A DNA stretch of 64,000 nucleotides from Gammaproteobacteria bacterium (GTDB taxonomy: Bacteria > Pseudomonadota > Gammaproteobacteria > AKS1). The notes under the pieces were generated by a model. The model made no database searches. It saw nothing but the letters and a program-made list of their open reading frames with translations, and was not told the DNA's origin. The translations under genes were made by a program, and so were the position numbers. Location of the stretch: assembly GCA_027006175.1 (NCBI GenBank), contig JALTKS010000079.1, positions 1-64,000 of the forward strand, read 5' to 3'. Of the stretch, positions 26,871 through 53,059 are shown one piece after another (the stretch's first letter is position 1; every line of letters starts with the position of its first letter).

Positions 26871-28703
26871 ATGTGTGGATTTGCTGCGTTATTTGAACCT
26901 CATAGAGTTTTTGATGATGGGTTATTGCGCCAGATGGATAGGGATTTATTTCATCGTGGTCCAGATTCAGGCGGGGTGGTTTCTGAGTCTGGCTGTGCTT
27001 TAGTATTTAGACGTTTAGCGATCATTGATCTTGATTCTGTTAGTGACCAACCGATGGTCGATCCTTCTGGTCGTTATGCAATGGTATTCAATGGCGAGAT
27101 TTATAATTACCAACAACTGCGTACGGAAATGAAAAACTTGGGCGACATCTTTTATACAAAGGGTGATGCAGAAGTTATTCTGCGTGGTTTTATACGCTGG
27201 GGTAAGGCTATATTTTCTCGACTTGAAGGAATGTTTGCAGTTGTTATTTGGGATCGACAACAAAAGAGTGGTATCGCTGCTCGTGATCCACTTGGGATCA
27301 AACCACTATATATGGCTCGCGACCATGATTTAATCGCATTTGCTAGTGAGATGCGTCCTTTACGACGATTGGTCGGTTCGAGACCAGATCTTTCTGCATT
27401 GTCTGAGTTATTGATGTATCGTTTCGCGGCGGGACGATTGAGCAATTTGCAAAATATTGATTTGGTTTCTGGTGGTTCTCTGATTGAATTTGAGCCAATG
27501 AAGAGCTTAGTTCGAGAAGAGAGCTATTGTGATTTTCTAGACACTTTTCAACCACAGCATGACATGAGTGAGTCTGATGCTATAGAGATATCTCGTGAAG
27601 CCTTGTTTGACTCTATTGAAACACATCTACAAAGTGATACAGGTTATGCAATACAGCTATCAGGTGGTGTTGATTCAAGCCTTGTGTCTGCGATAGTCAA
27701 AAACCGCCATCCTGAACGACCCTTGAGGACATATGGTATAAATTTACAACCATTACCTCAAGATGAACGTAAATACCGTGAGATGGTGATAAAACGTTAT
27801 AAGCTTGATCATCATGAAATTAAACTAAACGGGCTGGATTTTGCAGATTCCTTACCTAAGGCAATTGCACACATGGAGGGGCCATCAGCACATTACGGTT
27901 GTGTATTATTAATGCGCCTGTGCGAGCATATTAGTGAAACAGATAAGGTTGTGTTGACTGGAGAAGGCGCTGATGAGCTTTTTGGTGGTTATGCTCGTTA
28001 TGGTCAATGGAAAGAATTACAAAGTCTTGGTAAAAAAGCGCGGTTGATTCCAAGTCTATTATGGCCGTTACTCAAACGTTATCGTGGAGCGAAGAGATTT
28101 TCACAACATGATCCTGCGATTGTTTCATCTATATATTTCGATTTTTTAAATCTGAAACCATTATTTCCGGATTTGTTTTCCACTACTGGTTGGCGTGAAA
28201 ATGTAGCTGGACGATTTGGTGATTTTCGAGACCGTATGATGGCCGTTGATCAATCAAGCTATCTATCATCGCTACTGATGCGACAGGATAAAATGGCTAT
28301 GGCAGCATCGGTTGAGGCAAGAGTGCCTTTTACTCATCTGCCACTATTTGGCGTAGTTAATAGTATACCTCGAGATATACGCATCCCAGGTGGTGTAACA
28401 AAACCTTTATTAAAAAAAATTGCTGAACCTTGGTTGCCTAATGACCTCTTGTATAGAAGAAAAGTAGGGTTAAATCTACCACTTAATGATTGGTTACGTA
28501 AACCGGAGTTGCTGGGGCGTTATGTCGATGATCTGGTTTCACATGATGGGCGTTTGGCAGAATTTGGTGAAAGGACTAAATTAATTAAGTTAGTAGAAGC
28601 TTTTCGAAAAGGTAAACAGTCTAATGATATGCCACCTTTAATGAATTTGGTTAATCTGGAAATATGGTTACGATCGCTTGATATGATTTCTGTTACGAGG
28701 TAG
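26871..28703 (+). CDS. Glutamine-hydrolysing asparagine synthase family amidotransferase
   Basis: A 610-residue AsnB-type protein. It begins MCGF with the nucleophile Cys2, and has HRGPDSGG (about 29-36), NGEIYNY (about 74-80) and the synthetase PP-loop QLSGGVDSS (about 263-271). True AsnB makes asparagine, but in O-antigen loci paralogues such as WbpS amidate uronic acids to uronamides. Two UDP-sugar dehydrogenases in this locus would supply uronic acids, so glycan amidation is the favoured reading. Seven nt separate it from the previous AsnB-like gene. Confidence 0.87.
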   Translation: MCGFAALFEPHRVFDDGLLRQMDRDLFHRGPDSGGVVSESGCALVFRRLAIIDLDSVSDQPMVDPSGRYAMVFNGEIYNYQQLRTEMKNLGDIFYTKGDAEVILRGFIRWGKAIFSRLEGMFAVVIWDRQQKSGIAARDPLGIKPLYMARDHDLIAFASEMRPLRRLVGSRPDLSALSELLMYRFAAGRLSNLQNIDLVSGGSLIEFEPMKSLVREESYCDFLDTFQPQHDMSESDAIEISREALFDSIETHLQSDTGYAIQLSGGVDSSLVSAIVKNRHPERPLRTYGINLQPLPQDERKYREMVIKRYKLDHHEIKLNGLDFADSLPKAIAHMEGPSAHYGCVLLMRLCEHISETDKVVLTGEGADELFGGYARYGQWKELQSLGKKARLIPSLLWPLLKRYRGAKRFSQHDPAIVSSIYFDFLNLKPLFPDLFSTTGWRENVAGRFGDFRDRMMAVDQSSYLSSLLMRQDKMAMAASVEARVPFTHLPLFGVVNSIPRDIRIPGGVTKPLLKKIAEPWLPNDLLYRRKVGLNLPLNDWLRKPELLGRYVDDLVSHDGRLAEFGERTKLIKLVEAFRKGKQSNDMPPLMNLVNLEIWLRSLDMISVTR

Positions 28704-29972: not shown

Positions 29973-31901
29973 ATGTGTGGTTTAACCGGCTTCTGGAATC
30001 CTTCATCTAGTTGGGGTGTAGAAAAAAGTCAATTTTTTTTACGCGAAATGGCGGATAAAATAAAATCCAGAGGTCCTGATAGTCAAGGGATTTGGTACGA
30101 TCAAACAACAGGGATTGGTTTTGCACATCAACGGTTATCAATTGTTGATTTATCCTCTGCAGGTCAACAACCAATGCACTCCTCATCTGGTAATAGTGTG
30201 ATTGCCTATAATGGCGAAATCTATAATACGGCTGATATGCGGCAGGAACTTGAAATAAACGGTATCCAGTTTCGTGGTCATTCTGATACTGAAGTGCTGC
30301 TAGAAGGTTGTGAGTATTGGGGTGTGGAAGCAATGGTTAACCGTTGCATTGGAATGTTTGCTTTTGCATTTTGGGATCGTAAATTACGACGGCTTACGTT
30401 GGTTAGAGATAGAGTAGGTATTAAACCTCTATACTGGGGAAGATGTAATGGTGTCTGGTATTTTGGCTCACAACCTAAGAGTATTACTGCGAACCCTAAC
30501 TTTGATGTAAGAGTTAACCGTGATGTCATGGCAAGGTTTATCCAGTATGCATATGTATCTGCACCAGACTGTATTTATCAAGATTTGCAACAACTTCGCC
30601 CTGGCCATCTGCTTCATATTGATGAAAATAATGATACCAATATGGTGCGTTATTGGGATTTGCCTAATATTGCCATTATACAGTCCGATAAAATTAGCGA
30701 GGCATCTTATAATGATCTAGTTGGTGAGCTTGAGGCATTACTTTTAGATGCCGTTGATCGCAGAATGATTGCTGAAGTACCATTAGGTGCATTTTTGTCC
30801 GGTGGTGTGGATAGCTCGTTAGTGGTTGCGCTGATGCAAGCTAACTCGACACAAAAAGTAAGAACATTTTCTATTGGTTTCAATGAGCAAGGTTATAATG
30901 AAGCCGACTATGCGAGTGAAGTGGCAAAGCACTTAGGTACAGACCACACTGAAATGTATGTAAGTCATCAGCAAGTGCTTGATCTGGTACCACGCATTGC
31001 GGAAGCATATGATGAGCCTTTTGGTGATTCATCACAGTTGCCTACACAAATGTTATGTTCACTGACCCGTAAAGAAGTTACTGTTGCGCTATCAGGAGAT
31101 GGTGGTGATGAACTATTTGCTGGTTATAACCGATATTTGGTTTCTGAACATTTGCGTAAGGGCTACGCGAATTTTCCACGAAGTTTACGAAAGCTATCTG
31201 CTGGTTTCTTACGTTCAATTAAACCATCAGCATGGGATAGTATTGGTAAATTGATTCCACGAGGCAAACGTCCCGCGATGCTTGGTGATAAGTTACACAA
31301 ACTTGCGGCAGTCATTGGGCTTGATGATTTTGAGCAAGTGTATCCGGCGCTTTTAGAATATTGGTCGCATGCTGTTGTACCAAGAGCAGGTGACCCTATT
31401 TCACCGATAGGTTGGTCAGAAGGGGCTTCAGCCGTTAGTAACACAACGATGCGTATGCAATTAATGGATATGTTGAGTTATCTTCCTGACGATATTTTGA
31501 CTAAGGTTGATAGGGCAAGTATGGATGTCAGTCTTGAAGCAAGAGTCCCATTACTCGATCATCGTGTTGTTGAATTTTCATTGAGGTTGCCACAGTCAGC
31601 AAAGCTGGTTAATGGACGAGGCAAATTGATTCTCAGAGATGTCCTTGATCGGTATGTTCCGCGTGAATTAATTGATCGTCCTAAAATGGGGTTTGGTGTA
31701 CCGTTAGATGCCTGGCTACGTGGGCCACTTAGGGATTGGGCTGAGGATCTGCTAGATCCGATTAATCTACGAGATGATGATATGTTTGATGTAGCACCAA
31801 TTCGTCGCCGTTGGGATGAGCATCTTTCAGGGCAGCGAAATTGGCAATATTCATTATGGAATGTATTAATGGCTCAATCATGGAGACGTAACTGGTTATA
31901 G
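29973..31901 (+). CDS. Second glutamine-hydrolysing asparagine synthase family protein
   Basis: A 642-residue AsnB paralogue. Cys2 follows the initiator Met (MCGLTGFW). RGPDSQGIW (about 33-41), YNGEIYNT (about 75-82), the PP-loop FLSGGVDSSLV (about 268-278) and ALSGDGGDELFAGYNRY (about 368-384) are all present, so both half-reactions look intact. It is the third AsnB-like gene within 7 kb. As with its relatives in O-antigen clusters, amide formation on a uronic acid is more likely than asparagine supply; this is inferred from position. Confidence 0.87.
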   Translation: MCGLTGFWNPSSSWGVEKSQFFLREMADKIKSRGPDSQGIWYDQTTGIGFAHQRLSIVDLSSAGQQPMHSSSGNSVIAYNGEIYNTADMRQELEINGIQFRGHSDTEVLLEGCEYWGVEAMVNRCIGMFAFAFWDRKLRRLTLVRDRVGIKPLYWGRCNGVWYFGSQPKSITANPNFDVRVNRDVMARFIQYAYVSAPDCIYQDLQQLRPGHLLHIDENNDTNMVRYWDLPNIAIIQSDKISEASYNDLVGELEALLLDAVDRRMIAEVPLGAFLSGGVDSSLVVALMQANSTQKVRTFSIGFNEQGYNEADYASEVAKHLGTDHTEMYVSHQQVLDLVPRIAEAYDEPFGDSSQLPTQMLCSLTRKEVTVALSGDGGDELFAGYNRYLVSEHLRKGYANFPRSLRKLSAGFLRSIKPSAWDSIGKLIPRGKRPAMLGDKLHKLAAVIGLDDFEQVYPALLEYWSHAVVPRAGDPISPIGWSEGASAVSNTTMRMQLMDMLSYLPDDILTKVDRASMDVSLEARVPLLDHRVVEFSLRLPQSAKLVNGRGKLILRDVLDRYVPRELIDRPKMGFGVPLDAWLRGPLRDWAEDLLDPINLRDDDMFDVAPIRRRWDEHLSGQRNWQYSLWNVLMAQSWRRNWL

Positions 31902-33572: not shown

Positions 33573-34697
33573 ATGAAACGGTTGTTATTTATTGTTACTG
33601 AAGATTGGTACTTTGTTTCTCATCGTCTTGATCTGGCTATCGCGGCAATAGATTCTGGTTATACTGTTGCATTATTAAGTAATATATCGACACATCGCGG
33701 TCTTATCGAATCAAAAGGCATTGAAATAATCGATTGGTCATTAGATAGGCGATCTCGCAATTTTATTTCAGAGTTCAGATCTATAATAGGTGTGGTAAAA
33801 GCAATTCGTCATTTTAAACCTGATGTTGTACATGCAGTGGCAATGAAGCCAGTTCTTTATACTGCATTGGCAACTCGAATCACAGGAATTAAGGCACGTG
33901 TGTACGCGCTAGCTGGACTTGGTTTTATTTTTAGTTCACAAAAGAAAATGGCTCGTTTACTGAAACCTTTTTTTGTTGTTGCTTTTCGCTGGGCATTGAA
34001 GGGGCATAAATCACGATTAATTTTACAAAATCAGGATGATGTGGCTTTGTTGCTCAATTACCGGGTTATTGAAAAAAACAGGATTTGTCTAATTCGTGGA
34101 GCAGGTGTTAATACAGAATTATTTTCTCCTCAAAATAAATTATCTGCTATTCCTTTGGTTGTGTTATCAGGCAGGTTGCTTTGGGCAAAAGGCCCTGAGG
34201 TATTTGTAAAATGTGCCCGGTTATTGAAATCTAAAGGAATATCTGTGCGTTTTGCCTTGGTTGGCGAACCTGACGCACATAACCCAGAGTCAATTCCTGT
34301 TACACAGTTACACGAATGGGTTAATGAAGGTGTTGTTGAATGGTGGGGCAGGAGAAATGATATGCCAGATGTTTTACGTCAGGCAGCGATTGTCTGTTTA
34401 CCAACAACGTATGGAGAAGGTCTTCCTAAAGCGTTACTCGAAGCGGCAAGTTGCGGTTTACCCATTGTCACTTACGATGTGCCTGGTTGTCGAGAGATAG
34501 TTATTAATGACGTAAATGGTTATCTCATTCCAAAAAATGATGAACAGGGATTATTTGCCGCAGTAGAGATGTTGCTAAATGATTCATTATTACGAGAACA
34601 AATGGGGAAGGCGGGCAGAGAACTTGTTTTAAATGAATTTTCACAAAAGAAAGTTGCTGATGAAACGATAAAAGTGTGGGATGGACTGACAAGTTGA
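33573..34697 (+). CDS. Glycosyltransferase family 4 protein
   Basis: A 374-residue GT-B enzyme. The N-terminal acceptor domain has TEDWYFVSHRLDLAIAA (about 9-25) and VVHAVAMKPVLYTALA (about 86-101), seen in glycosyltransferases of O-antigen loci that act near WbpL-type initiators. The donor domain has VLSGRLLWAKGPEVFV (about 198-213) and TYGEGLPKALLEAASCGLP (about 280-298). A sugar cannot be named with certainty. Its end overlaps the start of the large membrane protein gene by 22 nt. Confidence 0.87.
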   Translation: MKRLLFIVTEDWYFVSHRLDLAIAAIDSGYTVALLSNISTHRGLIESKGIEIIDWSLDRRSRNFISEFRSIIGVVKAIRHFKPDVVHAVAMKPVLYTALATRITGIKARVYALAGLGFIFSSQKKMARLLKPFFVVAFRWALKGHKSRLILQNQDDVALLLNYRVIEKNRICLIRGAGVNTELFSPQNKLSAIPLVVLSGRLLWAKGPEVFVKCARLLKSKGISVRFALVGEPDAHNPESIPVTQLHEWVNEGVVEWWGRRNDMPDVLRQAAIVCLPTTYGEGLPKALLEAASCGLPIVTYDVPGCREIVINDVNGYLIPKNDEQGLFAAVEMLLNDSLLREQMGKAGRELVLNEFSQKKVADETIKVWDGLTS

Positions 34698-37096
34698 GAA
34701 TTTCGTATTCGCTCTCATTTATGGTTAATTTCTTTTCGATGACACTGTTGATGATAGGTTTTGGTATTTCAGGTATGCCTGAACTTGCTGCGGATATTGG
34801 TATAGTACATGGTGCCACGTTAGCTCTTTTCTATGCTTTTTCAGGCAATGTCAGGAGCATGGTATTAAATAGAGATAAAGCGATATCAATAGCATCTATT
34901 CTTGTAGGAAGGCTTTTGTTAGTACTCCCTCTTTCAGTAATTTCATTCTATCTTGTTGTTTCAGCGTCATCTGTTGAGATCATACTTGCAATAATATTGG
35001 TTGCGAGGCGAGCATTTGAATGGCTTAGCGAAGTTTATTTGAGTGATATTGAGCTCAGTAATAATGAAGCTATGTCCAATAATTATATTATCGTCCAAGC
35101 TATTTTATTAACACTTACTTTTATTGCTGGACTTAATAGTTCAGTGTATTTCATGTACATGTTAGGAGTATGGGCCTTATCCCCACTGGTTTACTGTGTA
35201 AGATATATATTAAAGAATACCTATGTGAAATTAACTATGTCTGAAACATGGTTGCAACTTGTTCCACATATAGGCTCAACAGCTATTATTGGTATTACAG
35301 TTTACATATTCAGGTTATTAATAATATTATTTACAAATAAAGCAATGGCGGGTGATTTATTTACTGCTTTTGCAATTGGAGGATTACTAGGTTCTGTTTT
35401 TGCTAATGGTATAGGTCCAGCCATTGCTAAACATGAAAGTGATTCAAAAAAAGGCTATTTACCATCTTTTCTGAAGTTATCACTTGCAGTTGTATTTTTA
35501 CTGGCAATTGGATTGTTAACTGTCTCTATTCTCTTGCCGGATGGGTTGTTACAACTAACAGGTAAATCATCAAGCTTCTGGTTGGCAACTTCTTTATCGT
35601 TAGTTGGTGGCGTGATTATGGTTTTCGCGCAGAGAATCAGATTCCGATGTTTACAGCATGATACTGATCATGACTTGTTTGGCCCTGATGTTTTAATTAA
35701 CTTGCTTATTGTTTTATTAATACCATTTATATTCTATACGGTAGGACCCAATGGTCTTGTTATATTGTATCTTGGAAGCGCAATTATAAATTTATTATTT
35801 TATATGAGTTCGTATAGAGAATACGGAAAATCAAATAGAGCACATTTTCTAGGTATCAATGTTTCTTCATGGAAAGTAATAATATCATTTTTATTACTTT
35901 TTCCGATATTCATTCAGATAAGTAGCGGTATTTTTGTTTCGGATCTTATTGATTACAAGTCATCAGGCTTATTGAGGACATTACCGTTACCAATAGCTAT
36001 TGGGGCATGTTTTTATGGGATATTATTATTAGGTCGTTATAGAAAAGCATATAAAGGGTCAGTTTTAATATTTATCTCATTTATTGCTATGGTTACGGCG
36101 ATATTGTTAGGAGATTTATCTTCGGATGAAGATGTTAGATTTAGATTTTTATTGCTTCTGCAGTATATTCTACCAATGTTTGGTTTAATTCTTGGGGAAA
36201 TGTATGGAAATGATTCAGATGCAGAATATAGCAAAGGGTTCTTGTATGTTTTAATTATATTAGTGCCAGCACAGTTGTTTCTTACATTTTCCGCAGATAG
36301 TATACGATTGATTACAAATGTTTATTATTTTAGTGTTTATCAGAATTATCAATATGTTGTCGTTGTCTTGGTCTCTGCATACTTGATTTCATTTGCTACG
36401 TTATTAGAAAATAATCGTTATCGTTTATTATTGCTAACATTATGGCCACTCCTTGGGCTTTATGTTATCGCTGTATTGTCAAAATTAGCAATAATACTTT
36501 TTTTAAGTGCTAGCATTTTAATGCTGGTATATAAATTTAGAGCATTCAGGGGTGGCATTGGTGTTCTAGTATTTGTTATACCGATTATTTATATATCAAC
36601 ATTTAATGAAAAAAACCTAATATACGATTCACTTAATTATATTACTGGGGCTGCTGGTAAGTCTTTAGTTGAAATAGACAGTATTGCACAGAGACTAGAT
36701 TACTGGTCTTTTTACTTCAATGGTATAATAGAAGGTGCAAAAGAGTTCTTGGTTGGACATGATAAAATTCTTAATAGAGGTTCTTATCCTAGCGCGCATA
36801 ATTACTATTTAGGCTTCTGGTATAATTTTGGTTTGTTGTCTTTGGTCCCTGTATTGTTGCTGATTTTATTTACGTTAATACGAATCATTAAAGGGCGAAA
36901 GGATATATTGGGTTCTTTTGAGATTTTGGTTTTAGTCAGTGTAGTCATGTTTTTATTGTTTTTTGATAACTTCTTTAAGGTTGGTCTCAGGCAGCCATAC
37001 TCTGGTATTTTTTCATTTTTTGTATGGGGGCTTCTGCTTGCAAAACTTAGTACGCTAAGAACAAATAAGTTTATTCCTGATGAAAGAATGTTGTAA
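34676..37096 (+). CDS. Fused Wzx-like flippase and Wzy/WaaL-like polymerase or ligase
   Basis: An 806-residue integral membrane protein, about twice the size of a Wzx or Wzy. Residues 1-380 look like a flippase (MATE/PST type) with some twelve hydrophobic segments, including a glycine-rich one, TAFAIGGLLGSVFANGIG. Residues of about 400-806 add about twelve more segments and the Wzy_C/O-antigen ligase pattern: RLDYWSFYFNGIIEG (about 673-687), then SAHNYYLGFWYNFGLLSLV (about 707-725) with the key HN pair. It would flip lipid-linked units and join them on the periplasmic side. Starts are GTG 34676 or TTG 34694. No separate Wzx is seen in the window. Confidence 0.78.
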   Translation: MGWTDKLRISYSLSFMVNFFSMTLLMIGFGISGMPELAADIGIVHGATLALFYAFSGNVRSMVLNRDKAISIASILVGRLLLVLPLSVISFYLVVSASSVEIILAIILVARRAFEWLSEVYLSDIELSNNEAMSNNYIIVQAILLTLTFIAGLNSSVYFMYMLGVWALSPLVYCVRYILKNTYVKLTMSETWLQLVPHIGSTAIIGITVYIFRLLIILFTNKAMAGDLFTAFAIGGLLGSVFANGIGPAIAKHESDSKKGYLPSFLKLSLAVVFLLAIGLLTVSILLPDGLLQLTGKSSSFWLATSLSLVGGVIMVFAQRIRFRCLQHDTDHDLFGPDVLINLLIVLLIPFIFYTVGPNGLVILYLGSAIINLLFYMSSYREYGKSNRAHFLGINVSSWKVIISFLLLFPIFIQISSGIFVSDLIDYKSSGLLRTLPLPIAIGACFYGILLLGRYRKAYKGSVLIFISFIAMVTAILLGDLSSDEDVRFRFLLLLQYILPMFGLILGEMYGNDSDAEYSKGFLYVLIILVPAQLFLTFSADSIRLITNVYYFSVYQNYQYVVVVLVSAYLISFATLLENNRYRLLLLTLWPLLGLYVIAVLSKLAIILFLSASILMLVYKFRAFRGGIGVLVFVIPIIYISTFNEKNLIYDSLNYITGAAGKSLVEIDSIAQRLDYWSFYFNGIIEGAKEFLVGHDKILNRGSYPSAHNYYLGFWYNFGLLSLVPVLLLILFTLIRIIKGRKDILGSFEILVLVSVVMFLLFFDNFFKVGLRQPYSGIFSFFVWGLLLAKLSTLRTNKFIPDERML

Positions 37097-38325
37097 TGAG
37101 AATACTAATCGTTTCTCAATACTTTTGGCCAGAATCCTTTAGGGTTAATGATATAGCAAGCGGTTTGATTGATCTTGGTCATGAGGTGACTGTGCTAACA
37201 GGAAAACCTAATTATCCACAAGGTCGATTTTATTCTGGATACGGAGTTTTTTCTATGCCAAAAGAAGCTCATGAAGGTATTAATATTATTCGAGTACCTA
37301 TTTTGCCGAGAGGTAAGAGTGGTATATTAAAATTGGCACTTAACTATATTTCATTTGCTGTAAGCGCATCACTTATTGGGCCATTTAAGTGTAAAGGCAG
37401 GTATGACTGTATTCTTGTATATCAGATGTCTCCAGTTATACAGGGAATTCCGGCTATAGTTTTGAAAAAAATATATAAAAGTCCTGTTTTTTTCTGGGTA
37501 CAGGATTTATGGCCAGAAAGTCTGTCTGCCGTAGGCGTAGTGAAAAAGAAGTGGCTACTATCTTTTCTCGAAATGATTGTAGGGTGGCTTTATCGATCAA
37601 GTGACAAAGTCCTTATTCAATCTGAAGCATTTAATCAACATGTGTTACAACACAGTGTCAATAAAAATGACATATATTACTTTCCTAATAGTGCAGAAGA
37701 TTTATATAAGCCAGTAGCACCAGATTGCACAAAGGATATTGCAGAAATTATACCAAATGGATTTATTGTTATGTTTGCTGGTAATGTTGGTATTGCTCAG
37801 GATATGCGAAATTTACTTAAAGCCGCAGAACTTATTAAATCAAATAAAAATATTCATTGGGTGATTGTTGGCGATGGCAGAAAATATGGTTGGCTTAAAG
37901 AAGAAATCCATAAAAGGAAATTAAGTGATACAGTCCATTGCTTGGGGCGCTATCCTGTAGAAATGATGCCACAATTTTTTTCTTATGCAGATGTTATGTT
38001 GGTTAGTCTAACTAAAGATCCTATTTTTTCTTCAACAATACCTGCAAAAATACAATCATATATGGCATGTGGTAAACCCATCATAGCCGCGCTTGATGGT
38101 ATAGGTGCGGAAGTTGTTATAAAAGCAAAAGCAGGCATGGTGTCAGAAGCAGAGAATGCGGATAAATTGTCGCATGTTGTCGTAGAAATGGCATCAATGC
38201 ATCAGACGAAGCTGGCTGAAATGGGGAGGAATGCGTTGAGTTATTATAATTCTAATTTTGATAGAAAGATGCTTCTAAATCGTTTGGTATCCTGGATAGC
38301 CAAAAACAAGAAGGCGCAGCGTTGA
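37096..38325 (+). CDS. wbuB: Glycosyltransferase, WbuB-like (L-fucosamine transferase)
   Basis: A 409-residue GT4 enzyme. The N-terminal signature VSQYFWPESFRVNDIASGL (about 5-23) with TGKPNYPQGRFYSGYG is typical of WbuB/WcaI-type transferases. Further marks are VQDLWPESL (about 135-143) and a donor site near SSTIPAKIQSYMACGKP (about 313-329). WbuB is known to transfer L-FucNAc. The fnl-type genes for UDP-L-FucNAc follow, which strengthens the name. Its ATG overlaps the previous stop (TAATG), and its own stop overlaps fnlB by 4 nt. Confidence 0.85.
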   Translation: MRILIVSQYFWPESFRVNDIASGLIDLGHEVTVLTGKPNYPQGRFYSGYGVFSMPKEAHEGINIIRVPILPRGKSGILKLALNYISFAVSASLIGPFKCKGRYDCILVYQMSPVIQGIPAIVLKKIYKSPVFFWVQDLWPESLSAVGVVKKKWLLSFLEMIVGWLYRSSDKVLIQSEAFNQHVLQHSVNKNDIYYFPNSAEDLYKPVAPDCTKDIAEIIPNGFIVMFAGNVGIAQDMRNLLKAAELIKSNKNIHWVIVGDGRKYGWLKEEIHKRKLSDTVHCLGRYPVEMMPQFFSYADVMLVSLTKDPIFSSTIPAKIQSYMACGKPIIAALDGIGAEVVIKAKAGMVSEAENADKLSHVVVEMASMHQTKLAEMGRNALSYYNSNFDRKMLLNRLVSWIAKNKKAQR

Positions 38326-39176
38326 TGAAAATTCTTGTTATGGGAGCAAGCGGAATGATAGGTAGTGCCATGTTACGCGTATTGGCGCAGCATGAAACAT
38401 GGGAAGTCTATGGTACAGCAAGAGAATCCGCTATAAGAAGTTGTTTCCCGGAAGCTGTTGCAACAAATATATTTACAAATATTGATTGTGAGAATACAGA
38501 TATTTCATTATTGTTTAAAAAGCTTATGCCATCAGTAGTTATAAATTGTATAGGTCTTACTAAACATTTGCCTGAAGCTGACGATCCTCTGAGAGCAATT
38601 CCTCTAAATTCTTTGTGGCCCCATCGTTTAAACAAATATTGTGAAGAATATAATGCTCGATTGATACATATAAGTACAGATTGTATTTTTTCTGGCGATA
38701 AAGGTAATTACTCAGAAAAAGAACCATCTGATGCGCAGGATATTTATGGTAAATCAAAGTTTATAGGTGAAGTTATTGATTCGCGGGCTGTAACATTGCG
38801 TACATCTACAATTGGCCATGAAATTTCTACTAAAAATGGTTTGCTTGAATGGTTCTTATCTCAGGAAGAGAAATGCAAAGGTTTTGCAAAGGCAATTTTT
38901 TCTGGTTTACCAACAGTCATTCTTGCCGAGCTTATACGGGATTATGTCATACCTAATAAATACTTGTCGGGTTTGTATCATGTTTCCGGCCCCGCAATTT
39001 CGAAATATGATTTATTAAATATAATTGCAAAAGAATATAACAAGGTTATTGATATTGAATACGATGAGTCTTTTAAAATTGATCGTTCATTAAATGCTGA
39101 AAAGTTTAATAAATTAACTGGTTTTGTTACACCTGATTGGAATAGTCTCATAAAATATATGTATGCTCATCAATGA
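38322..39176 (+). CDS. RmlD-like NAD(P)-dependent sugar reductase (FnlB candidate)
   Basis: A 284-residue SDR enzyme. The Rossmann motif is MGASGMIGSAM (about 7-17). The active site has ISTDCIFSG (about 116-124) and YGKSKFIGE (about 140-148, YxxxK). It resembles RmlD and the reductase domain of FnlB/WbjC/Cap5F, which reduces the 4-keto intermediate to the L-talo or L-fuco sugar. FnlB/Cap5F has a second, cupin-type domain (about 370 residues in all) that is missing here, so this may be a shorter reductase giving a related L-sugar. It is separated from fnlA and fnlC by two inserted genes. Confidence 0.78.
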   Translation: MMKILVMGASGMIGSAMLRVLAQHETWEVYGTARESAIRSCFPEAVATNIFTNIDCENTDISLLFKKLMPSVVINCIGLTKHLPEADDPLRAIPLNSLWPHRLNKYCEEYNARLIHISTDCIFSGDKGNYSEKEPSDAQDIYGKSKFIGEVIDSRAVTLRTSTIGHEISTKNGLLEWFLSQEEKCKGFAKAIFSGLPTVILAELIRDYVIPNKYLSGLYHVSGPAISKYDLLNIIAKEYNKVIDIEYDESFKIDRSLNAEKFNKLTGFVTPDWNSLIKYMYAHQ

Positions 39177-39306: not shown

Positions 39307-40095
39307 ATGGTCATCCGTAATAACATAAAAGAACTATCAATATATGGTTTTGTTTTTCTCGTTCTGCTGGTTGGTGTTTGGTTATATAGGATGAGTGTTA
39401 ATCCGAATCTGGATTTAATAACCAAGAATGTTTCAGTACCTGAAAACTTTGTTTTAACTGTTGATAATATAAGAGAGTATATAAATAAAAATAGTGTCAA
39501 TATAATTGATGATGATTTTTGGTCATATCAATCAGATCATGAGCGTGTTGCTGGTATGATGATTGATTACGAATCTGGATTGAGTACATATAAGCCGCAT
39601 CTTGAATGTTCAGCACGTGCTAGTTTATTTAAGACTTTATTGAAGCGAATGGGATATAAATCCAGAGTTGTCTATGTCTGGACCCACCTTGATGAATTTC
39701 CTTCTCATACTTTTTTGGAGGTTTTTAACAATGAAACAAAAAAATGGGAAGTATCTGATGCCGATTATAATTTGTATTATGAAGATATTTCTACCAAGCA
39801 AAGATTGTCTGTTAACGATTTATTAAGGCTTGATCAATCCATGTATCACCCTTGTGGAAAAGACACTGGTTGTGGATGGGACATACAAACTAAAGGTAAT
39901 GATCCGGCTAATAATTTAAAAAAATATATGGCTCTCGCATCATATTCAGATGATGATGGTCGCATAACGGTGGTTAATGTAAATCGATTTTCTTTGGAAA
40001 AGCCAGCATTGTCAAAAGGTGAAAAGAAGCGGCTTTGTGATATATTTTCCTGGATTTGTAGTGCAAGAATAATTGAGTATCCACTATATAAATAG
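39307..40095 (+). CDS. Membrane-anchored transglutaminase-like protein, copy 1
   Basis: A 262-residue protein with one N-terminal membrane span (about 12-27) and a periplasmic domain. C101 in HLECSARASLFKTLL, H134 in PSHTFLEV and D151 in KWEVSDADYN match the Cys-His-Asp triad of transglutaminase-like (papain-fold) proteins. Such proteins act as peptidases, amidases or acyl-transfer enzymes. Two cysteines in HPCGKDTGCGW may form a disulfide. Its substrate is unknown. The gene is followed by a near-identical copy, and the pair sits inside the L-FucNAc gene set. Confidence 0.78.
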   Translation: MVIRNNIKELSIYGFVFLVLLVGVWLYRMSVNPNLDLITKNVSVPENFVLTVDNIREYINKNSVNIIDDDFWSYQSDHERVAGMMIDYESGLSTYKPHLECSARASLFKTLLKRMGYKSRVVYVWTHLDEFPSHTFLEVFNNETKKWEVSDADYNLYYEDISTKQRLSVNDLLRLDQSMYHPCGKDTGCGWDIQTKGNDPANNLKKYMALASYSDDDGRITVVNVNRFSLEKPALSKGEKKRLCDIFSWICSARIIEYPLYK

Positions 40096-41046
40096 TTTAG
40101 GGGTTTAAAGTAAGTTTAATAATATGAGTATGTTTAAAATTTATCGCTAAATAAATACAGATAAATTTAGCAAATTGATTGTGTTTATTATACTTGGTTG
40201 GAGTAGCGACATAAGATATCTTCATGGCCATCAATTGTTCAATGTTTATTTAGGAAGGATGAACAAAAATGCTCAATCGTAATAACATAAGAAAATTATT
40301 TATATACGGTTTTGTTTTTCTCGTTCTGCTGGTTGGTGTTGGGTTATATAGGATGAGTGTTAATCCGAATCTGGATTTAATAATCAAGAATATTTCAGCA
40401 CCTGAAAACTTTGTTTTAACTGTTGATAATATAAGAGAGTATGTAAATAAAAATAGTGTCAATATAATTGATGATGATTTTTGGTCATATAAATCAGATC
40501 ATGAACGTGTTGCTGGTATGATGATTGATCACGAATCTGGATTGAGTACATATAAGCCGCATCTTGAATGTTCAGCACGTGCTAGTTTATTTAAGACTTT
40601 ATTGAAGCGAATGAGGTATAAAGTTAGGGTTGTTAATGTTTGGACCCACCTTGATGAATTTCCTTCTCATACTTTTTTGGAGGTTTTTAACAATGAAACA
40701 AAAAAATGGGAAGTATCTGATGCCGATTATAATTTGTATTATGAGGATATTTCTACCAAGCAAAGATTGTCTGTTAACGATTTATTAAGGCTTGATCAAT
40801 CCATGTATCATCCTTGTGGAAAAGACACCGGTTGTGGATGGGATATACAAACTAAAGGTAATGATCCGGCTAATAATTTAAAAAAATATATGGCGCTCGC
40901 ATCATATTCAGATGATGATGGTCGCATAACGGTGGTTAATGTAAACCGATTTTCTTTGGAAAAGCCAGCATTGTTAAAAGGTGAAAATAGGCGGTTTTGT
41001 GATGTATTCTCAAAGTTCTGTAGTGCAAGAATGATTGAGTATCCAT
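39316..41046 (+). repeat. Direct tandem duplication of about 0.77 kb (two transglutaminase-like genes)
   Basis: The unit at about 39316-40082 recurs at about 40278-41042 with an offset near 962 bp. The middle is almost identical, for example from the codons for WTHLDEFPSH through to those for VNRFSLEKPAL. A short downstream match (aaatagtttaggg) also follows both copies. The 173-bp spacer between the genes shows no clear counterpart upstream of copy 1. Confidence 0.9.
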
Positions 41047-41048
41047 GA
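40269..41048 (+). CDS. Membrane-anchored transglutaminase-like protein, copy 2
   Basis: A 259-residue twin of the previous gene. It keeps the membrane span and the Cys-His-Asp triad (same positions) and differs by scattered changes, mostly near the N-terminus, around residues 117-124 and in the last 25 residues. The central part is nearly the same at the DNA level, so the duplication is recent or the copies are kept alike by gene conversion. A purine-rich ribosome-binding site (AGGAAGG) precedes the start region; ATG at 40269. Function unknown beyond the fold. Confidence 0.78.
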   Translation: MLNRNNIRKLFIYGFVFLVLLVGVGLYRMSVNPNLDLIIKNISAPENFVLTVDNIREYVNKNSVNIIDDDFWSYKSDHERVAGMMIDHESGLSTYKPHLECSARASLFKTLLKRMRYKVRVVNVWTHLDEFPSHTFLEVFNNETKKWEVSDADYNLYYEDISTKQRLSVNDLLRLDQSMYHPCGKDTGCGWDIQTKGNDPANNLKKYMALASYSDDDGRITVVNVNRFSLEKPALLKGENRRFCDVFSKFCSARMIEYP

Positions 41049-41088
41049 TCGAATTTATATAACAATAAATAGTTTAGGGCTTGATAGT

Positions 41089-42099
41089 ATGTTTAAGAAT
41101 AAGATATTAATGATAACTGGTGGGACAGGCTCTTTTGGTACGACTGTTTTAAGGCGATTCCTTTCTACTGAAGTTAAAGAAATACGTATATTTAGTCGTG
41201 ATGAGAAAAAACAAGAAGAAATGCGTATTGCATTCAGTCACCCTAAATTAAAATTTTATATTGGAGATGTTCGCGATTACGATAGTATTAATCAAGCAAT
41301 GAGAGAGGTTGATTACGTATTTCATGCCGCTGCTTTAAAACAAGTACCTTCCTGTGAGTTTTACCCAATGGAGGCAGTACGAACAAATATTGAAGGTACT
41401 GAGCATGTTATAAATGCCGCCATCGCCAATACTGTAAAACGTGTTATCGTTTTAAGTACTGATAAGGCTGTCTATCCTATTAATGCAATGGGTATTTCTA
41501 AAGCAATGTCTGAAAAGCTCGTAGTTGCTAAATCACGTTTGCAAGGTAAAACAGATACTGTTCTCTGTGCAACGCGCTATGGCAATGTAATGGCATCACG
41601 AGGATCGGTTATTCCTCTTTTTGTTTCACAGATTAAGGATGGTAAACCATTAACGGTTACTGATCCCAATATGACACGTTTTTTAATGTCATTGGAGGAT
41701 TCAGTTGATTTGGTATTATATGCATTCGAGCATGGTGAGCAGGGTGATATATTTGTGCAAAAAGCTCCGGCTTCGACCGTAGCAGATCTGGCTCAAGCAC
41801 TGAATGAAATATTTGGTGGAAAAGAAAAACCAAGAGTTATTGGTACGCGTCATGGTGAGAAATTATATGAATCGCTTATTTCAAGAGAAGAAATGGCGCA
41901 TGCAATTGATATGGGAGATTACTACAGATTGCCAGCAGATAATCGTGATCTCAATTATGCAAAATATTATAGTGATGGTGAAAAGGTTATTACTAAAGCT
42001 AAAGATTATACATCACACAGCACAAATAGACTTAATGTAGAAGAAATTAAAGCGTTGCTTATGAAGCTTGATTTTATTAAGGAAGAATTAAATGCTTAA
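41089..42099 (+). CDS. fnlA: UDP-GlcNAc 4,6-dehydratase/5-epimerase, FnlA/WbjB/Cap5E type
   Basis: A CapD-family SDR of 336 residues. The Rossmann motif is TGGTGSFGTTVL (about 9-20). The active site is LSTDKAVYPINAMGISK (about 122-138), with Met where most SDRs have Tyr, as usual for inverting dehydratases. It starts UDP-L-FucNAc synthesis with 4,6-dehydration and C5 epimerisation. I chose ATG 41089 because the protein then begins MFKNKILMITGG; the frame is open further back to 41035, which would overlap the previous gene. Confidence 0.87.
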   Translation: MFKNKILMITGGTGSFGTTVLRRFLSTEVKEIRIFSRDEKKQEEMRIAFSHPKLKFYIGDVRDYDSINQAMREVDYVFHAAALKQVPSCEFYPMEAVRTNIEGTEHVINAAIANTVKRVIVLSTDKAVYPINAMGISKAMSEKLVVAKSRLQGKTDTVLCATRYGNVMASRGSVIPLFVSQIKDGKPLTVTDPNMTRFLMSLEDSVDLVLYAFEHGEQGDIFVQKAPASTVADLAQALNEIFGGKEKPRVIGTRHGEKLYESLISREEMAHAIDMGDYYRLPADNRDLNYAKYYSDGEKVITKAKDYTSHSTNRLNVEEIKALLMKLDFIKEELNA

Positions 42100-43219
42100 G
42101 ATCATGACAATTGTTGGTACTCGACCAGAAATCATTAAACTAAGCCGAGTGATGGCAGAACTCAATAAGTATACCAATCATATTTTAGTTCATACCGGTC
42201 AGAATTATGACTATGAATTAAATGAAATATTTTTTAACGAGCTAGGTGTTGAAAAACCAGATTACTATTTGGATGCGGCACAAGGTTCAGCGGCCCAAAC
42301 CATTGGCAATATTATTGCAAAGAGCGATGAGATATTTGAAAAAGAGAATCCTGATGCTATTCTGGTTTTGGGAGATACAAATAGTTGTTTATCAGTGATT
42401 TCAGCTAAGCGTAGAAAGATACCTGTTTTTCACATGGAAGCAGGTAATCGTAGTTTTGACGAGCGTGTTCCAGAAGAAATTAATCGTCGTATTGTTGATC
42501 ATACCAGTGATATTAACCTGACTCATACCGAACATGCTCGTCGGTATTTAATAAGAGAAGGAATTAAGCCAGAGACTATTATTAAGACTGGTTCCCCAAT
42601 GAAGGAAATTCTTGATTATCATGCTAAAGATATTGATGCATCAAATATTCTCAGTAAGATGGGTTTGAAAACGAAAGAGTTCTTTATTGTTAGTATTCAT
42701 CGTGAAGAAAATGTTGATAATCCAGGTAATTTTAAGGATCTTTTAGATTCATTGACTGCAATCGCGGATAAATACAAGTCTCCTATCATTGTCTCAACGC
42801 ATCCAAGAACCAAAATGCGTCTGGAAGAACTTGATAAAGTTGAATTACATGATTTGATAAGCTTTGTTAAACCTATGGGATTCTTTGACTATGTGAAACT
42901 TCAAAAAGAGTCGCGATGTATTATCTCTGACAGTGGCACCATTACTGAAGAAGCAACAATTTTAAATCTACCTGCAGTTACTATCAGGCAAGCCCATGAG
43001 CGTCCAGAAGGGATGGACGAAGGTGTTTTAATTATGTCCGGTCTTAAGCAGGAAAGTGTTCTGAATGCTATTGATATTGTCACGGAACAGCATAACAAGA
43101 ATGTTAGAAATTTTCGAGTTGTTGAAGACTATGATGTTGATAATGTTTCTAAGAAGATGCTTAGAATTATTTGTAGTTATACTGATTATGTAAACAGGAC
43201 TGTCTGGTCAAAAACCTGA
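42092..43219 (+). CDS. fnlC: Non-hydrolysing UDP-sugar 2-epimerase, FnlC/WbjD/Cap5G type
   Basis: A 375-residue epimerase of the WecB fold. Marks are IVGTRPEIIKLSRVM (7-21), VHTGQNYD (about 34-41), LGDTNS (about 92-97), HMEAGNRSFDERVPEEINRR (about 111-130) and ISDSGTITEEA (about 273-283). The AGNRSFD form is found in the FnlC group, which makes UDP-L-FucNAc or UDP-L-QuiNAc at the last step. It overlaps fnlA by 8 nt and so forms a unit with it. Ordinary WecB (ManNAc for ECA) is less likely here. Confidence 0.87.
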   Translation: MLKIMTIVGTRPEIIKLSRVMAELNKYTNHILVHTGQNYDYELNEIFFNELGVEKPDYYLDAAQGSAAQTIGNIIAKSDEIFEKENPDAILVLGDTNSCLSVISAKRRKIPVFHMEAGNRSFDERVPEEINRRIVDHTSDINLTHTEHARRYLIREGIKPETIIKTGSPMKEILDYHAKDIDASNILSKMGLKTKEFFIVSIHREENVDNPGNFKDLLDSLTAIADKYKSPIIVSTHPRTKMRLEELDKVELHDLISFVKPMGFFDYVKLQKESRCIISDSGTITEEATILNLPAVTIRQAHERPEGMDEGVLIMSGLKQESVLNAIDIVTEQHNKNVRNFRVVEDYDVDNVSKKMLRIICSYTDYVNRTVWSKT

Positions 43220-43229
43220 TAATTTATCT

Positions 43230-44690
43230 ATGAGGTCAAGTGTATTCTTAAATCGTTATTTATATGTGGTGTATCTATTAATTTCTATCATTACAGGTGC
43301 AGCACTCCTGAAATATAACGGTCAGTCTTATATTTATTTATTATTTACACTAATCATGAATTTTGCATTGTTTTCTGGCTTTAGAAAAGGTGCAATATTT
43401 TTTGATGCGTTTATTGGTGCTTTTTTTTGGTTAGGTTTCTGGCTAAAGTTGACAGTACGACTTGTTTTTTTAGATGGACAGTTCTCTGAAAGTGTTGGTA
43501 ATTTTTCTGGAGAAGGCGAGGCATATGATCGTGTTTTACTCGTTGTTTCTTGCGGGGTTTTTGGCTTGATTATTGCGAGCTATCTGAGAGAAAGGTTCAT
43601 ATTTAAATATCCAGATGAGATCGAAACTGTAGGAAATGCTGGAATATTTGAGTTTTATAAAAAAAATAGAATGATTGTATTGGTTCTATTTGTCACATTA
43701 TTCTCCGGTGTTGCTGTATCTAATTTGTATTTCGGTATATATCAGCGAGGTGAGATTGCACAGACTATATTGCCATTTGGTTTGAGTGGTGTTTACAAAT
43801 GGTTACTATTATTCGGGCTGGCATCTTTTACAGCTATAATATTAAGATTTGAGTTCTTCATTAATAAATCAACTACGTATCTTGTTGTTATAATAGGGAT
43901 GTTAGAAAGTTTTCTTAGCAGTGTTTCTTTGTTCAGCCGAGGGATGATATTAAATACAAGTGCTTTAGTTTATGGTGTGATGCGTAGCTTAAAAACGTAT
44001 AAGACAAATTCCAGTATCAAGTTTTTGATTGTTTCATTTGTTATATTTATAGCGTTCTTTGTTAGTTCGATTTTTCTCGTGACCCAGTTTCGTACTAATA
44101 ATGAACTTGCCATGTATCAGGTTACTAATAACCAGATATCATCACTTGCATTAAGCGAGGAGGTATCTAGGAACCTTATTGTTACGGGGCGTAACGTAAA
44201 GATGCTTTTTCTTGATCGATGGGTTGGGATAGAAGGGGTTATGGCTATCTCCAGCTACCCGAAACAGGGGTGGGAACTGTTTTTTAGAGCGCTTTCTGAA
44301 AACTATTCTGAGAATGAGTCCGGGTTTTATGATGTGATTATTAACTCATCGTATTTAAATATAGATAAGTCTAAATATCATTATCAGTCGCTACCGGGTA
44401 TGATTGCCTTTTTGTTTTATTCAGGGTCGTATTTGTTTTTATTTTTTTCTATGGTTGTCTTGGGCTTTATCGCAGTATTTATAGAAATATTAACGTTTAA
44501 AATGGGTGGTAAGAATTTAATATTGTGCGCATTAATAGCACAGGTCGTTGCATATAGGTATAGTCATTTTGGTTACGTCCCTAAGCAGAGTTACTTGTTA
44601 TTTGGCGCGATATTTTTAAACTTATTCCTTGTCTACATGACAAATAAGTGGCTATGTTATTTTTATAAGAATAAAAAAAGCTATATTTGA
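43230..44690 (+). CDS. Probable O-antigen polymerase-like membrane protein
   Basis: A 486-residue protein with about twelve hydrophobic segments along its length and a large loop at about 290-390 (from the FRTNNEL region to the SKYHYQS region). Low sequence conservation with such a loop is typical of Wzy polymerases. Key Arg residues could be those in SLFSRGMILN and TGRNVKML, but this cannot be shown here. A second polymerase-like half exists in the fusion at 34676, so one may polymerise and the other may act as ligase or on a different repeat. Confidence 0.65.
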   Translation: MRSSVFLNRYLYVVYLLISIITGAALLKYNGQSYIYLLFTLIMNFALFSGFRKGAIFFDAFIGAFFWLGFWLKLTVRLVFLDGQFSESVGNFSGEGEAYDRVLLVVSCGVFGLIIASYLRERFIFKYPDEIETVGNAGIFEFYKKNRMIVLVLFVTLFSGVAVSNLYFGIYQRGEIAQTILPFGLSGVYKWLLLFGLASFTAIILRFEFFINKSTTYLVVIIGMLESFLSSVSLFSRGMILNTSALVYGVMRSLKTYKTNSSIKFLIVSFVIFIAFFVSSIFLVTQFRTNNELAMYQVTNNQISSLALSEEVSRNLIVTGRNVKMLFLDRWVGIEGVMAISSYPKQGWELFFRALSENYSENESGFYDVIINSSYLNIDKSKYHYQSLPGMIAFLFYSGSYLFLFFSMVVLGFIAVFIEILTFKMGGKNLILCALIAQVVAYRYSHFGYVPKQSYLLFGAIFLNLFLVYMTNKWLCYFYKNKKSYI

Positions 44691-44736: not shown

Positions 44737-45690
44737 ATGAAGAGTATTCTTATTACGGGTGCTAATGGCTTTCTCGGGCGTGCTTTGAGCTTATATATGC
44801 TTGAGCAAGGCTGGGATGTTAGAGGCGTTGTTAGAACGGAAGAATTAGCAGTGACTCTCCCTAAGGGAGTGCAGCCTTATGTTATCGAGGATATTGGTCC
44901 TAATGTAAACTGGACTAAGGTGCTTGTCGATATTGATGTTGTTGTGCATCTTGCTGCAATAGTCCATGTCCTAAAGAACAATGATATGGCTGAATATGAC
45001 AATTATATGAAAGTTAATTGTTATGGAAGTGAAGCTTTGGCTATTGCAGCTAGAGATGCAGGCGTTAACAAGTTTATTTACCTTAGTAGCATCCGCGTTA
45101 ACGGTAAAGTAACAACTTCAATTCCATTTTCAGAAAAAGATGTTCCCGAACCTACCGATTGTTATGCTACATCAAAATGGGAGGCTGAAAAGAAACTTAA
45201 TGCATTAATGTCAGATGATAAAATGGGTATAGTTATTGTACGGCCACCGCTTGTATATGGACCTTCCTCGAAAGGAAATTATATTAGGTTGCAGAATATT
45301 ATTAATAAAGGTATTCCATTGCCTTTATTAAAGATAAAAAACAAACGAAGTATGATAGGGATACGAAACCTTGTCGATTTTATTTTCTCTGTGATTAATA
45401 CTGACAAAGCATCAGGTGAGACGTTTGTTATATCTGATGATGATGATATGACGTTACCATATTTGATTAGCACTATGTCTAATGAATTAGGTAAACAGCC
45501 TCGATTATTCTTTTTTCCAAGAACGCTCATGTATTTTTTAGCAAAGTTATTAAGAATGGAACAGACCTGGGAGCGATTATTTTGTTCGTTACAAATTGAT
45601 ATAAGCAAAGCTAAAAACTTGTTAGACTGGGTGCCACCTTATTCTACTAAGGAAGAAATACGGTACTCCATTAGTAAGAATGCTAAGTGA
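44737..45690 (+). CDS. wbpV: UDP-4-keto-6-deoxy-GlcNAc reductase, WbpV-like
   Basis: An SDR enzyme of 317 residues. ITGANGFLGRALSLY (6-20) is the nucleotide-binding turn. YLSSIRVNGK (about 116-125) and DCYATSKWEAEKKL (about 140-153) hold the Ser and YxxxK. It resembles WbpV, which reduces the WbpM product to UDP-D-QuiNAc, and also FucNAc-type reductases (WbpK). It is followed by wbpL with an 11-nt overlap, as in Pseudomonas O-antigen loci, and by wbpM at the end of the locus. Confidence 0.83.
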   Translation: MKSILITGANGFLGRALSLYMLEQGWDVRGVVRTEELAVTLPKGVQPYVIEDIGPNVNWTKVLVDIDVVVHLAAIVHVLKNNDMAEYDNYMKVNCYGSEALAIAARDAGVNKFIYLSSIRVNGKVTTSIPFSEKDVPEPTDCYATSKWEAEKKLNALMSDDKMGIVIVRPPLVYGPSSKGNYIRLQNIINKGIPLPLLKIKNKRSMIGIRNLVDFIFSVINTDKASGETFVISDDDDMTLPYLISTMSNELGKQPRLFFFPRTLMYFLAKLLRMEQTWERLFCSLQIDISKAKNLLDWVPPYSTKEEIRYSISKNAK

Positions 45691-46702
45691 TTTGATGCTT
45701 AATATGTTCTTGCTATTAATACTTTCTTTCTTAACTACTTTGCTTGGTAGTTATTATTTAATTAGATATAAGAATCTTGTTGGTGTATTTGCAGTCCCTA
45801 ATGATAGAACACTCCATGAGATGCCGACACCAAGAACCGGTGGTGTTGCAATAGTCTTCTCGATTATCCTCTATGCTTCTTTCATATACCCAATCGATAA
45901 TATTTTTATGTTCATCCTTTTGGGTCTGGCACTGGTAGCATTTATTTCTTTTATTGATGATATCTACACGATTAGTCCACTTATACGTTTAATTATCCAT
46001 GTATTGGCTTCCTTTTTATTGATAAAAGCAGGTTTCAGAATAGATTCAATTGATGTTGCCGGCTATGTGATTTCTTTTCCTGAGATTTTGAGCATATTGG
46101 TGACCGTATTATCAATTATATGGTTAATAAACTTGTATAATTTTATGGACGGTATTGATGGTATTGCAGCAGGGATAGCGGTAATAGGTTTTGGCACTTT
46201 TGCAGTAATGGCATATATAGCAGGAAATATTGATTATATGGCTGTCTGTCTGGTGTTAGTGAGTGCCTCCCTAGGGTTTCTTATCTTTAATTTTCCTCCC
46301 GCAAAAATATTTATGGGTGATATTGGGGCGTCATCCCTTGGTTTTCTGGTTGCCGCTATGTCCTTATGGGCAGATAAGGAAAATATATTTCCTATCTTCG
46401 CATCAATTATTGTTTTTTCACCTTTCATTATTGATGCAACTGTTACCATCATCCTTCGATTAATGCGGAAAGAAAGAGTCTGGAAGGCACATAATAAGCA
46501 TTATTATCAAAGACTTGTTAAGATAGGCTTAGGTCATAAAAATACTGTGTTGTGTGAATATGGTTTAATGCTTATTTCGGCTATTATTGCTGTCGCTTAT
46601 TTTTTAGCGGATGACAATAATCGAATATATTTATTGATTACGTATATAGCGTTATATAGCGGATTGATCTATTGGGTGCATCGAATAACAGTAAATGAAT
46701 AG
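45680..46702 (+). CDS. wbpL: Initiating glycosyl-1-phosphate transferase, WbpL-like
   Basis: A 340-residue WecA/WbpL-family enzyme with about ten membrane spans. It carries the cytosolic motifs FIDDIYTISP (about 93-102), LYNFMDGIDGIAAG (about 153-166), PPAKIFMGDIGASSLGF (about 208-224) and, near the end of the active region, RVWKAHNKHYYQRL with its HxH-like pattern. It transfers QuiNAc- or FucNAc-1-phosphate to undecaprenyl phosphate, so it starts the lipid-linked unit. ATG 45680 lies inside the wbpV end; a second ATG at 45695 also fits. Confidence 0.88.
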   Translation: MLSDLMLNMFLLLILSFLTTLLGSYYLIRYKNLVGVFAVPNDRTLHEMPTPRTGGVAIVFSIILYASFIYPIDNIFMFILLGLALVAFISFIDDIYTISPLIRLIIHVLASFLLIKAGFRIDSIDVAGYVISFPEILSILVTVLSIIWLINLYNFMDGIDGIAAGIAVIGFGTFAVMAYIAGNIDYMAVCLVLVSASLGFLIFNFPPAKIFMGDIGASSLGFLVAAMSLWADKENIFPIFASIIVFSPFIIDATVTIILRLMRKERVWKAHNKHYYQRLVKIGLGHKNTVLCEYGLMLISAIIAVAYFLADDNNRIYLLITYIALYSGLIYWVHRITVNE

Positions 46703-52501: not shown

Positions 52502-53059
52502 TTATCCATCACCACACCCTAAATCAGACCCATCTGGTCTCACCGTTGAGATACGTGGTCGCCCCGTATTGGAGATAATCACGGCTTTGGCATATTCAGG
52601 GTAGTCGGGATCACAAAAGACATAAGTACCGTTACTGCCGGGTGATTGACCAGTATTTTGGTAAACAATTCGCCTGCGGCGACCGGAGGTGATGTTGATA
52701 CCATTTTCTTCACCTTTTTCAACGAAGAGAAGATCATCTCGACCATCTAATTCACGGTTAGCATTGTAGTCGGCGAAGATGATCCAGCCTTGCTCCCAAC
52801 CAGCCGTTCTTTCGCAAGACTCACCGTCTGAGCTTCGACACATAACCGCTCTGACACCGCGTTTAATGGCTTCGCTGCGGGTATAGTGTAAATGCCCGAC
52901 AAAGGTATTGATTTCAGTGGTTAAACGATTGCGCTGAACCATCTTGTGAAAGGCAGGAATTGCCGTAGTGGTTAAAATTGCGCTAATACCAAGACTTATC
53001 ATCATTTCAAGCAGGGTAAACCCGCGCTGGAAACGAAAAGTGTGGATATCCATATCCAT
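52502..53059 (-). CDS. fimT: Type IV minor pseudopilin, GspH/FimT family
   Basis: A 185-residue prepilin. The leader ends at G13/F14 in RGFTLLEMMISLGISA, with Glu at mature position 5 (E18), so it is cut by prepilin peptidase and then inserted by its hydrophobic helix (about 14-38). The C-terminal GspH-type globular part has WEQGWIIFADYNANRELDG (about 88-106). It may prime or cap type IV pili or a related secretion pseudopilus. Other pilus genes are not nearby. It lies downstream of the aminotransferase gene on the same strand. Confidence 0.87.
   Translation of the reverse strand: MDMDIHTFRFQRGFTLLEMMISLGISAILTTTAIPAFHKMVQRNRLTTEINTFVGHLHYTRSEAIKRGVRAVMCRSSDGESCERTAGWEQGWIIFADYNANRELDGRDDLLFVEKGEENGINITSGRRRRIVYQNTGQSPGSNGTYVFCDPDYPEYAKAVIISNTGRPRISTVRPDGSDLGCGDG

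Follow-up and report, generated by a model that had tools for sequence, protein, structure and literature searches.

Positions 34676-37096 on the forward strand of the 64,000-nucleotide stretch of DNA analysed here (the window) encode a two-domain membrane protein, FUS, a real and conserved fusion that is as yet unannotated and whose two constituents are each of a known kind. FUS is probably a naturally occurring union of a flippase of the Wzx type and a transferase of lipid-linked sugars of the WaaL/Wzy_C type, working in an O-antigen-type pathway whose repeat units include L-FucNAc. The frame was described in an earlier sequence-only reading as 806 uninterrupted residues, and it is indeed open throughout, with 806 codons from a GTG and no internal stop. 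GTG 34676 is merely the first possible start, however. Since the N-termini of the homologues align close to the residue whose codon is TTG 34694, and since this TTG shares bases with the stop of the glycosyltransferase gene before it (TTGA), the working length of the protein is probably about 800 residues, counted from TTG 34694. Searches of Pfam, NCBIfam and PHROGs with the window protein gave no match, so that HMM annotation alone could not decide its identity, and a sequence search of the PDB with the protein and with a profile returned nothing useful.

The AlphaFold2 model of FUS, computed on an alignment of 29 rows (the window protein and 28 full-length relatives), has a pLDDT of 84.2 and a pTM of 0.88, with 12 helices between residues 9 and 383; a second domain, also helical, begins at residue 396. 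A Foldseek search of the PDB matched one part of the model to MATE, MurJ and WzxE and the other part to WaaL, none with an E-value below 0.001, perhaps because the two domains dilute the match; the fold claim is carried by VIA-align Z-scores. For the N-terminal half (residues 1-387; 34676-35836, forward strand), these were 14.4 for MurJ, 13.8 for MATE, and 13.4 and 13.1 for WzxE (365 aligned, 4.2 Å). Z-scores below about 13 can reflect a common arrangement of helices in helical proteins, but all the matches are members of the MOP superfamily (Wzx/MurJ/MATE), which makes the assignment safer than the Z-scores alone. The model also has the 12 or more helices in two lobes that define the MOP fold.

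In sequence, the resemblance of this half to Wzx is marginal. Neither PF01943 nor PF13440 matched the N half alone, or any of the 29 members at E ≤ 1. A profile of the N half compared with eight Wzx proteins gave a collinear match with E = 0.0018, and every other such comparison gave 0.12 or worse. In this weak alignment, the invariant Arg213 (35312-35314, forward strand; 29 of 29 members) falls on Arg239 of WzxE, reported to be the one positive residue of that protein that is fully conserved, which has been proposed to hold the pyrophosphate as a pair with Arg44 (PMC11706664). The flippase-like character that had been proposed for the first half is supported, mainly by the fold, with the arginine correspondence beside it.

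The C-terminal half (residues 388-796; 35837-37063, forward strand) is a WaaL/Wzy_C-type GT-C domain by model, structural alignment and profile. VIA-align superimposed it on WaaL (PDB code 7tpg, chain 7tpg_B) with Z = 21.0 (328 aligned, 5.2 Å). A profile of this half matched a set of seven WaaL-type proteins, one of them E. coli WaaL and the other six encoded in FUS-bearing genomes, with E = 3e-6, placing His708 on His338 of E. coli WaaL, and it matched the Wzy_C proteins of related clusters with E = 1e-6. The HN pattern of Wzy_C/WaaL proteins that the earlier reading had seen is present at residues 708-709 (SAHNYYLGFWYNFG), in the form HN-x9-G. The sequence-only reading had staked its proposal on fold similarity in both halves, and both have it: to MOP for residues 1-387 and to WaaL for residues 388-796. 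WaaL is the only such O-antigen enzyme among the PDB matches listed, and the fold match therefore cannot tell Wzy from WaaL.

Besides His708 (36797-36799), the key residues of the C half are Arg673 (36692-36694) and Arg772 (36989-36991), all on the forward strand. Across the alignment, His708 is kept in 25 of the 29 members, Arg701 in 28 and Arg772 in all. Both His708 and Arg673 have been lost in one clade (L019, L022 and L028), and a further fused protein (L026) has glutamine at position 708 and adjoins a stand-alone C half with an intact motif. The HN motif is accordingly kept in most members and is not indispensable everywhere. The Pfam model PF04932 gave the C half of the window protein 6.7 bits, below the cut-off of 31.7, and matched four of the 29 members at E ≤ 1 (best E = 3.5e-8).

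Scans of viral contigs, genome contigs and plasmids with the single FUS sequence found no match, and a three-sequence profile was needed to find relatives. With this profile, a single scan across the genomes of bacteria and archaea returned 30 loci, 28 of which give full-length FUS with 29-41% identity to the window protein and with invariant columns across both halves. Matches of 469 and 474 residues (L043 and L044) were set aside as ordinary distant Wzy_C proteins. The sources include Pseudomonas, Burkholderiales, Herbaspirillum, Hydrogenophaga, Methylophilaceae and Chromatiales, and also Planctomycetota, Verrucomicrobiota, Elusimicrobiota and genomes labelled ‘Deltaproteobacteria’. Within the window's class, FUS matches were found in four of 369 genomes, counting the window's own, and one of these is a C-terminal remnant only; one Pseudomonas-type genus has full FUS in six of 298 genomes. 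The protein is therefore rare but widespread. That the frame is an artefact of assembly or annotation joining two genes, a danger that the earlier reading had itself named, has a negligible probability and was ruled out: the 28 homologues are independent, come from unrelated assemblies and have one open frame each, the joint is conserved in all 29 proteins, and nothing was found in favour of an artefact. A form kept joined in several phyla is not a sequencing error, and the search for the same fusion in other genomes, which that reading had recommended, was answered by these proteins.

The fusion is old as well as real, judging from the divergence of its homologues and from separate trees of its two halves, whose distances correlate across the 29 fused proteins (r = 0.85) and have similar means (2.69 for the N half, 2.48 for the C half). 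Three stand-alone C halves (L026, L034 and L037) fall among the fused ones at two places in an unrooted tree whose deep branches lack resolution. This suggests that they split off from fusions, or were duplicated out of them, rather than preceding them. Apart from one fragment, no stand-alone N half was found.

Other architectures occur as well. In an Elusimicrobiales genome, a protein of 1208 residues (L032:9926-13552) joins the flippase and Wzy_C-type domains to a C-terminal GT4 domain. This third domain is related (28% identity, E = 4e-19) to the glycosyltransferase gene directly upstream of FUS in another locus (L027), so that related glycosyltransferases lie beside FUS in one case and form part of its chain in the other. 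A 976-residue protein (L026:180-3107) carries a MurJ-type flippase (PF03023, residues 503-936) behind a polytopic half of about 500 residues that looks PMT-like by eye, and is possibly another flippase-transferase fusion. Broken or partial copies of FUS lie beside an intact one in two loci (L021:8701-11171 and L035:9929-10390), the mark of repeated duplication or recombination at that spot.

The earlier statement that the locus holds no other flippase stands, as the only other strongly polytopic frames of the window are a 486-residue protein, TM486 (43230-44690), and a WecA-like protein (45680-46702). Genome-wide, PF01943 had no match in the window genome, and PF13440 a single one, in a 529-residue frame whose sequence looks MurJ-like. 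By these two models, which support the point without proving it, the genome has no other Wzx-type flippase. The same holds for at least seven genomes in all (window, L012, L014, L015, L018, L020 and L024), where PF01943 found nothing and the matches to PF13440 are at most MurJ-like: two genomes (L015 and L024) have none, and those of L012, L014, L018 and L020 seem MurJ-like by frame length and matched region. A separate Wzx is encoded within about 17 kb in about a dozen related clusters (for example L011, L016, L019, L025 and L035), and the N half is therefore not always the sole flippase. Since some genome records are incomplete drafts and a divergent Wzx can escape Pfam, its role as a working flippase is supported rather than proven. 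The clusters with their own Wzx, together with the existence of stand-alone C halves and the near lack of stand-alone N halves, could be read to mean that the N half has degenerated as a flippase and is kept as a scaffold or substrate-recognition module, with the separate Wzx flipping and only the C half active. We regard this as unlikely, because it has to contend with the genomes that lack another Wzx-type flippase, with the similar rates of divergence of the two halves, and with nine charged residues of the N half that are invariant in all 29 members (Arg60, Arg79, Arg111, Glu115, Glu119, Glu126, Arg213, Arg322 and Asp338).

FUS marks one pathway, that of L-FucNAc. A GT4 glycosyltransferase gene (33573-34697) lies directly upstream and overlaps the FUS start. 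Downstream on the same forward strand are a WbuB/WcaI-like GT4 protein, the candidate L-FucNAc transferase (37096-38325; found in 22 of the 28 FUS loci by tblastn with the sugar genes of the window), a FnlB-like RmlD-type reductase for L-FucNAc synthesis (38322-39176; 24 of 28), a FnlA-like UDP-GlcNAc 4,6-dehydratase/5-epimerase (41035-42099; 22 of 28) and a FnlC/WecB-like 2-epimerase (42092-43219; 23 of 28). Of the 26 loci whose flanks could be used, 25 carry at least one L-FucNAc gene (FnlABC or WbuB). Beyond these lie a WbpV-like SDR protein whose role is inferred from its position (44737-45690), the WecA/WbpL-like phosphoglycosyl transferase (PF00953; 45680-46702) and a WbpM-like dehydratase (PF02719; 50433-52307), with WbpM in 17 of the 28 loci.

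Several further features of these loci deserve mention. Tandem duplicate proteins of about 260 residues, 91% identical, are encoded between FnlB and FnlA (39307-40095 and 40269-41048); they have one N-terminal helix and, by eye, a transglutaminase-like Cys/His/Asp pattern, and the first copy has no Pfam match. Two asparagine-synthase-type amidotransferases belong to the same cluster (26871-28703 and 29973-31901), and a 799-residue frame of the window (60149-62548) has no NCBIfam match and only a weak PHROG match. In one genome (G364), a 63-residue C-terminal remnant of FUS (L004:1357-1719) immediately precedes WbuB-FnlB-FnlA-FnlC, and the fusion seems to have been lost from this locus.

TM486 (forward strand; AlphaFold2 pLDDT 82) lies 6 kb downstream of FUS in the window and adjoins it in most relatives. 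It matched nothing in Pfam or NCBIfam. Its modelled fold has weak matches to FtsW (Z = 9.8) and WaaL (Z = 6.3), and Foldseek found nothing significant; profile comparison likewise gave no match to either half of FUS, and we dropped the idea that TM486 is a relative of one of them. Relatives with 42-53% identity occur in 17 of the 28 FUS loci, usually as the next gene. In the set of 298 Pseudomonas-type genomes, TM486 has five strong matches, which lie immediately downstream of FUS in five of the six genomes with full FUS, a count that uses a strong/weak score cut chosen after the list was seen and that ignores kinship among the genomes. In the remaining genome FUS occurs twice, and one copy is split.

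The proposal that a fusion would link flipping directly with polymerisation or ligation stands insofar as the two halves are joined; polymerisation by FUS is one of two versions, with TM486 as a second candidate polymerase or ligase. We narrowly favour a polymerase for the C half. Most genomes with FUS also have separate Wzy_C genes of WaaL size (for example 385-424 residues in six genomes), which argues for the polymerase, as does the O-locus of genome G767, where one Wzx and FUS are the only polytopic candidates in the cluster. In the other version, the N half would act as Wzx and TM486 as the Wzy polymerase, with the C half serving as a WaaL-type ligase dedicated to chains with that reducing end. 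The best fold match of the C half, the weakly FtsW/WaaL-like fold of TM486 and its place behind FUS in the Pseudomonas-type genomes fit this version, as does the window genome, which has no other Wzy_C protein above the cut-off (a genome of the same genus, G002, has three). The separate WaaL-sized genes kept in most other FUS genomes speak against it, and so do three clusters (G767, G757 and G765, the last starting at a contig end) that have FUS without TM486 or another polymerase candidate nearby; we consider it possible but the less probable of the two. A location of stand-alone C halves in an LPS-core (waa) locus, which would favour a ligase, was rejected for L037, which lies among genes for c-di-GMP proteins and an aldehyde dehydrogenase. 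The superfamily also includes the PglL enzymes (PMC10030265), and FUS might in principle be a flippase joined to an oligosaccharyltransferase that moves the glycan to protein. This is very improbable, as almost all of the informative neighbourhoods are sugar clusters of the O-antigen type and no pilin or sequon protein was seen as a regular neighbour, although the window does hold a prepilin-like frame (52502-53059).

With the flippase-polymerase as the preferred version, the pathway may run as follows. The WbpL/WecA-like and WbuB enzymes would assemble a unit on undecaprenyl-PP, placing L-FucNAc close to the lipid end, and the N half of FUS would flip this unit to the periplasmic face. From its tethered position next to the exit, the C half would use the unit as a donor or an acceptor, joining it to the growing chain or, as a ligase, joining the chain to lipid A-core. 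TM486 would supply the other transfer or an accessory one. Hand-over of the substrate between the halves is likewise what we infer. More tentatively, and with somewhat less than even confidence, FUS may be the core of a dedicated export-assembly machine for L-FucNAc-linked O-antigen, in which an obligatory tether holds flipping and chain building together, the substrate is handed over directly, TM486 is a conserved component, and the triple fusion with its glycosyltransferase would build, flip and join.

A working complex of Wzx, Wzy and Wzz is an open proposal drawn from mutant complementation (PMC10030265), and a flippase and a transferase that are covalently linked in nature provide direct evidence, from evolution, of such coupling. 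We found no report of a natural Wzx-Wzy or flippase-ligase (WaaL) fusion in the open-access literature searched, to which the architecture is new. As a single chain, FUS is an object for structure determination and assay and offers a direct way to test whether both steps are physically coupled. It is also an unannotated family that marks L-FucNAc O-antigen loci and is useful for O-typing, and TM486 is a second such family, its partner.

Compared with Wzx (for example E. coli WzxE; PF01943/PF13440), FUS shares the 12-helix MOP fold, an arginine equivalent to Arg239 and an O-antigen-type cluster, but it goes unrecognised by Pfam and NCBIfam, has marginal sequence similarity and carries a second, catalytic-type domain. 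With WaaL and other Wzy_C proteins (PF04932), it shares an alignment over the whole C half, the HN-x9-G motif with its histidine at the His338 position and, in most members, the preceding arginine motif. Unlike WaaL, the window protein lies below the Pfam cut-off and sits behind a flippase, and the histidine is lost in one clade. The C half also resembles the SEDS-related Wzy polymerases in reaction class and cluster context, and many beta-type Wzy proteins carry Wzy_C (PMC12502699). As the earlier reading had noted, however, Wzy and Wzx are normally described as separate proteins (PMC12004945, PMC10030265), whereas in FUS the two kinds of domain share one chain.
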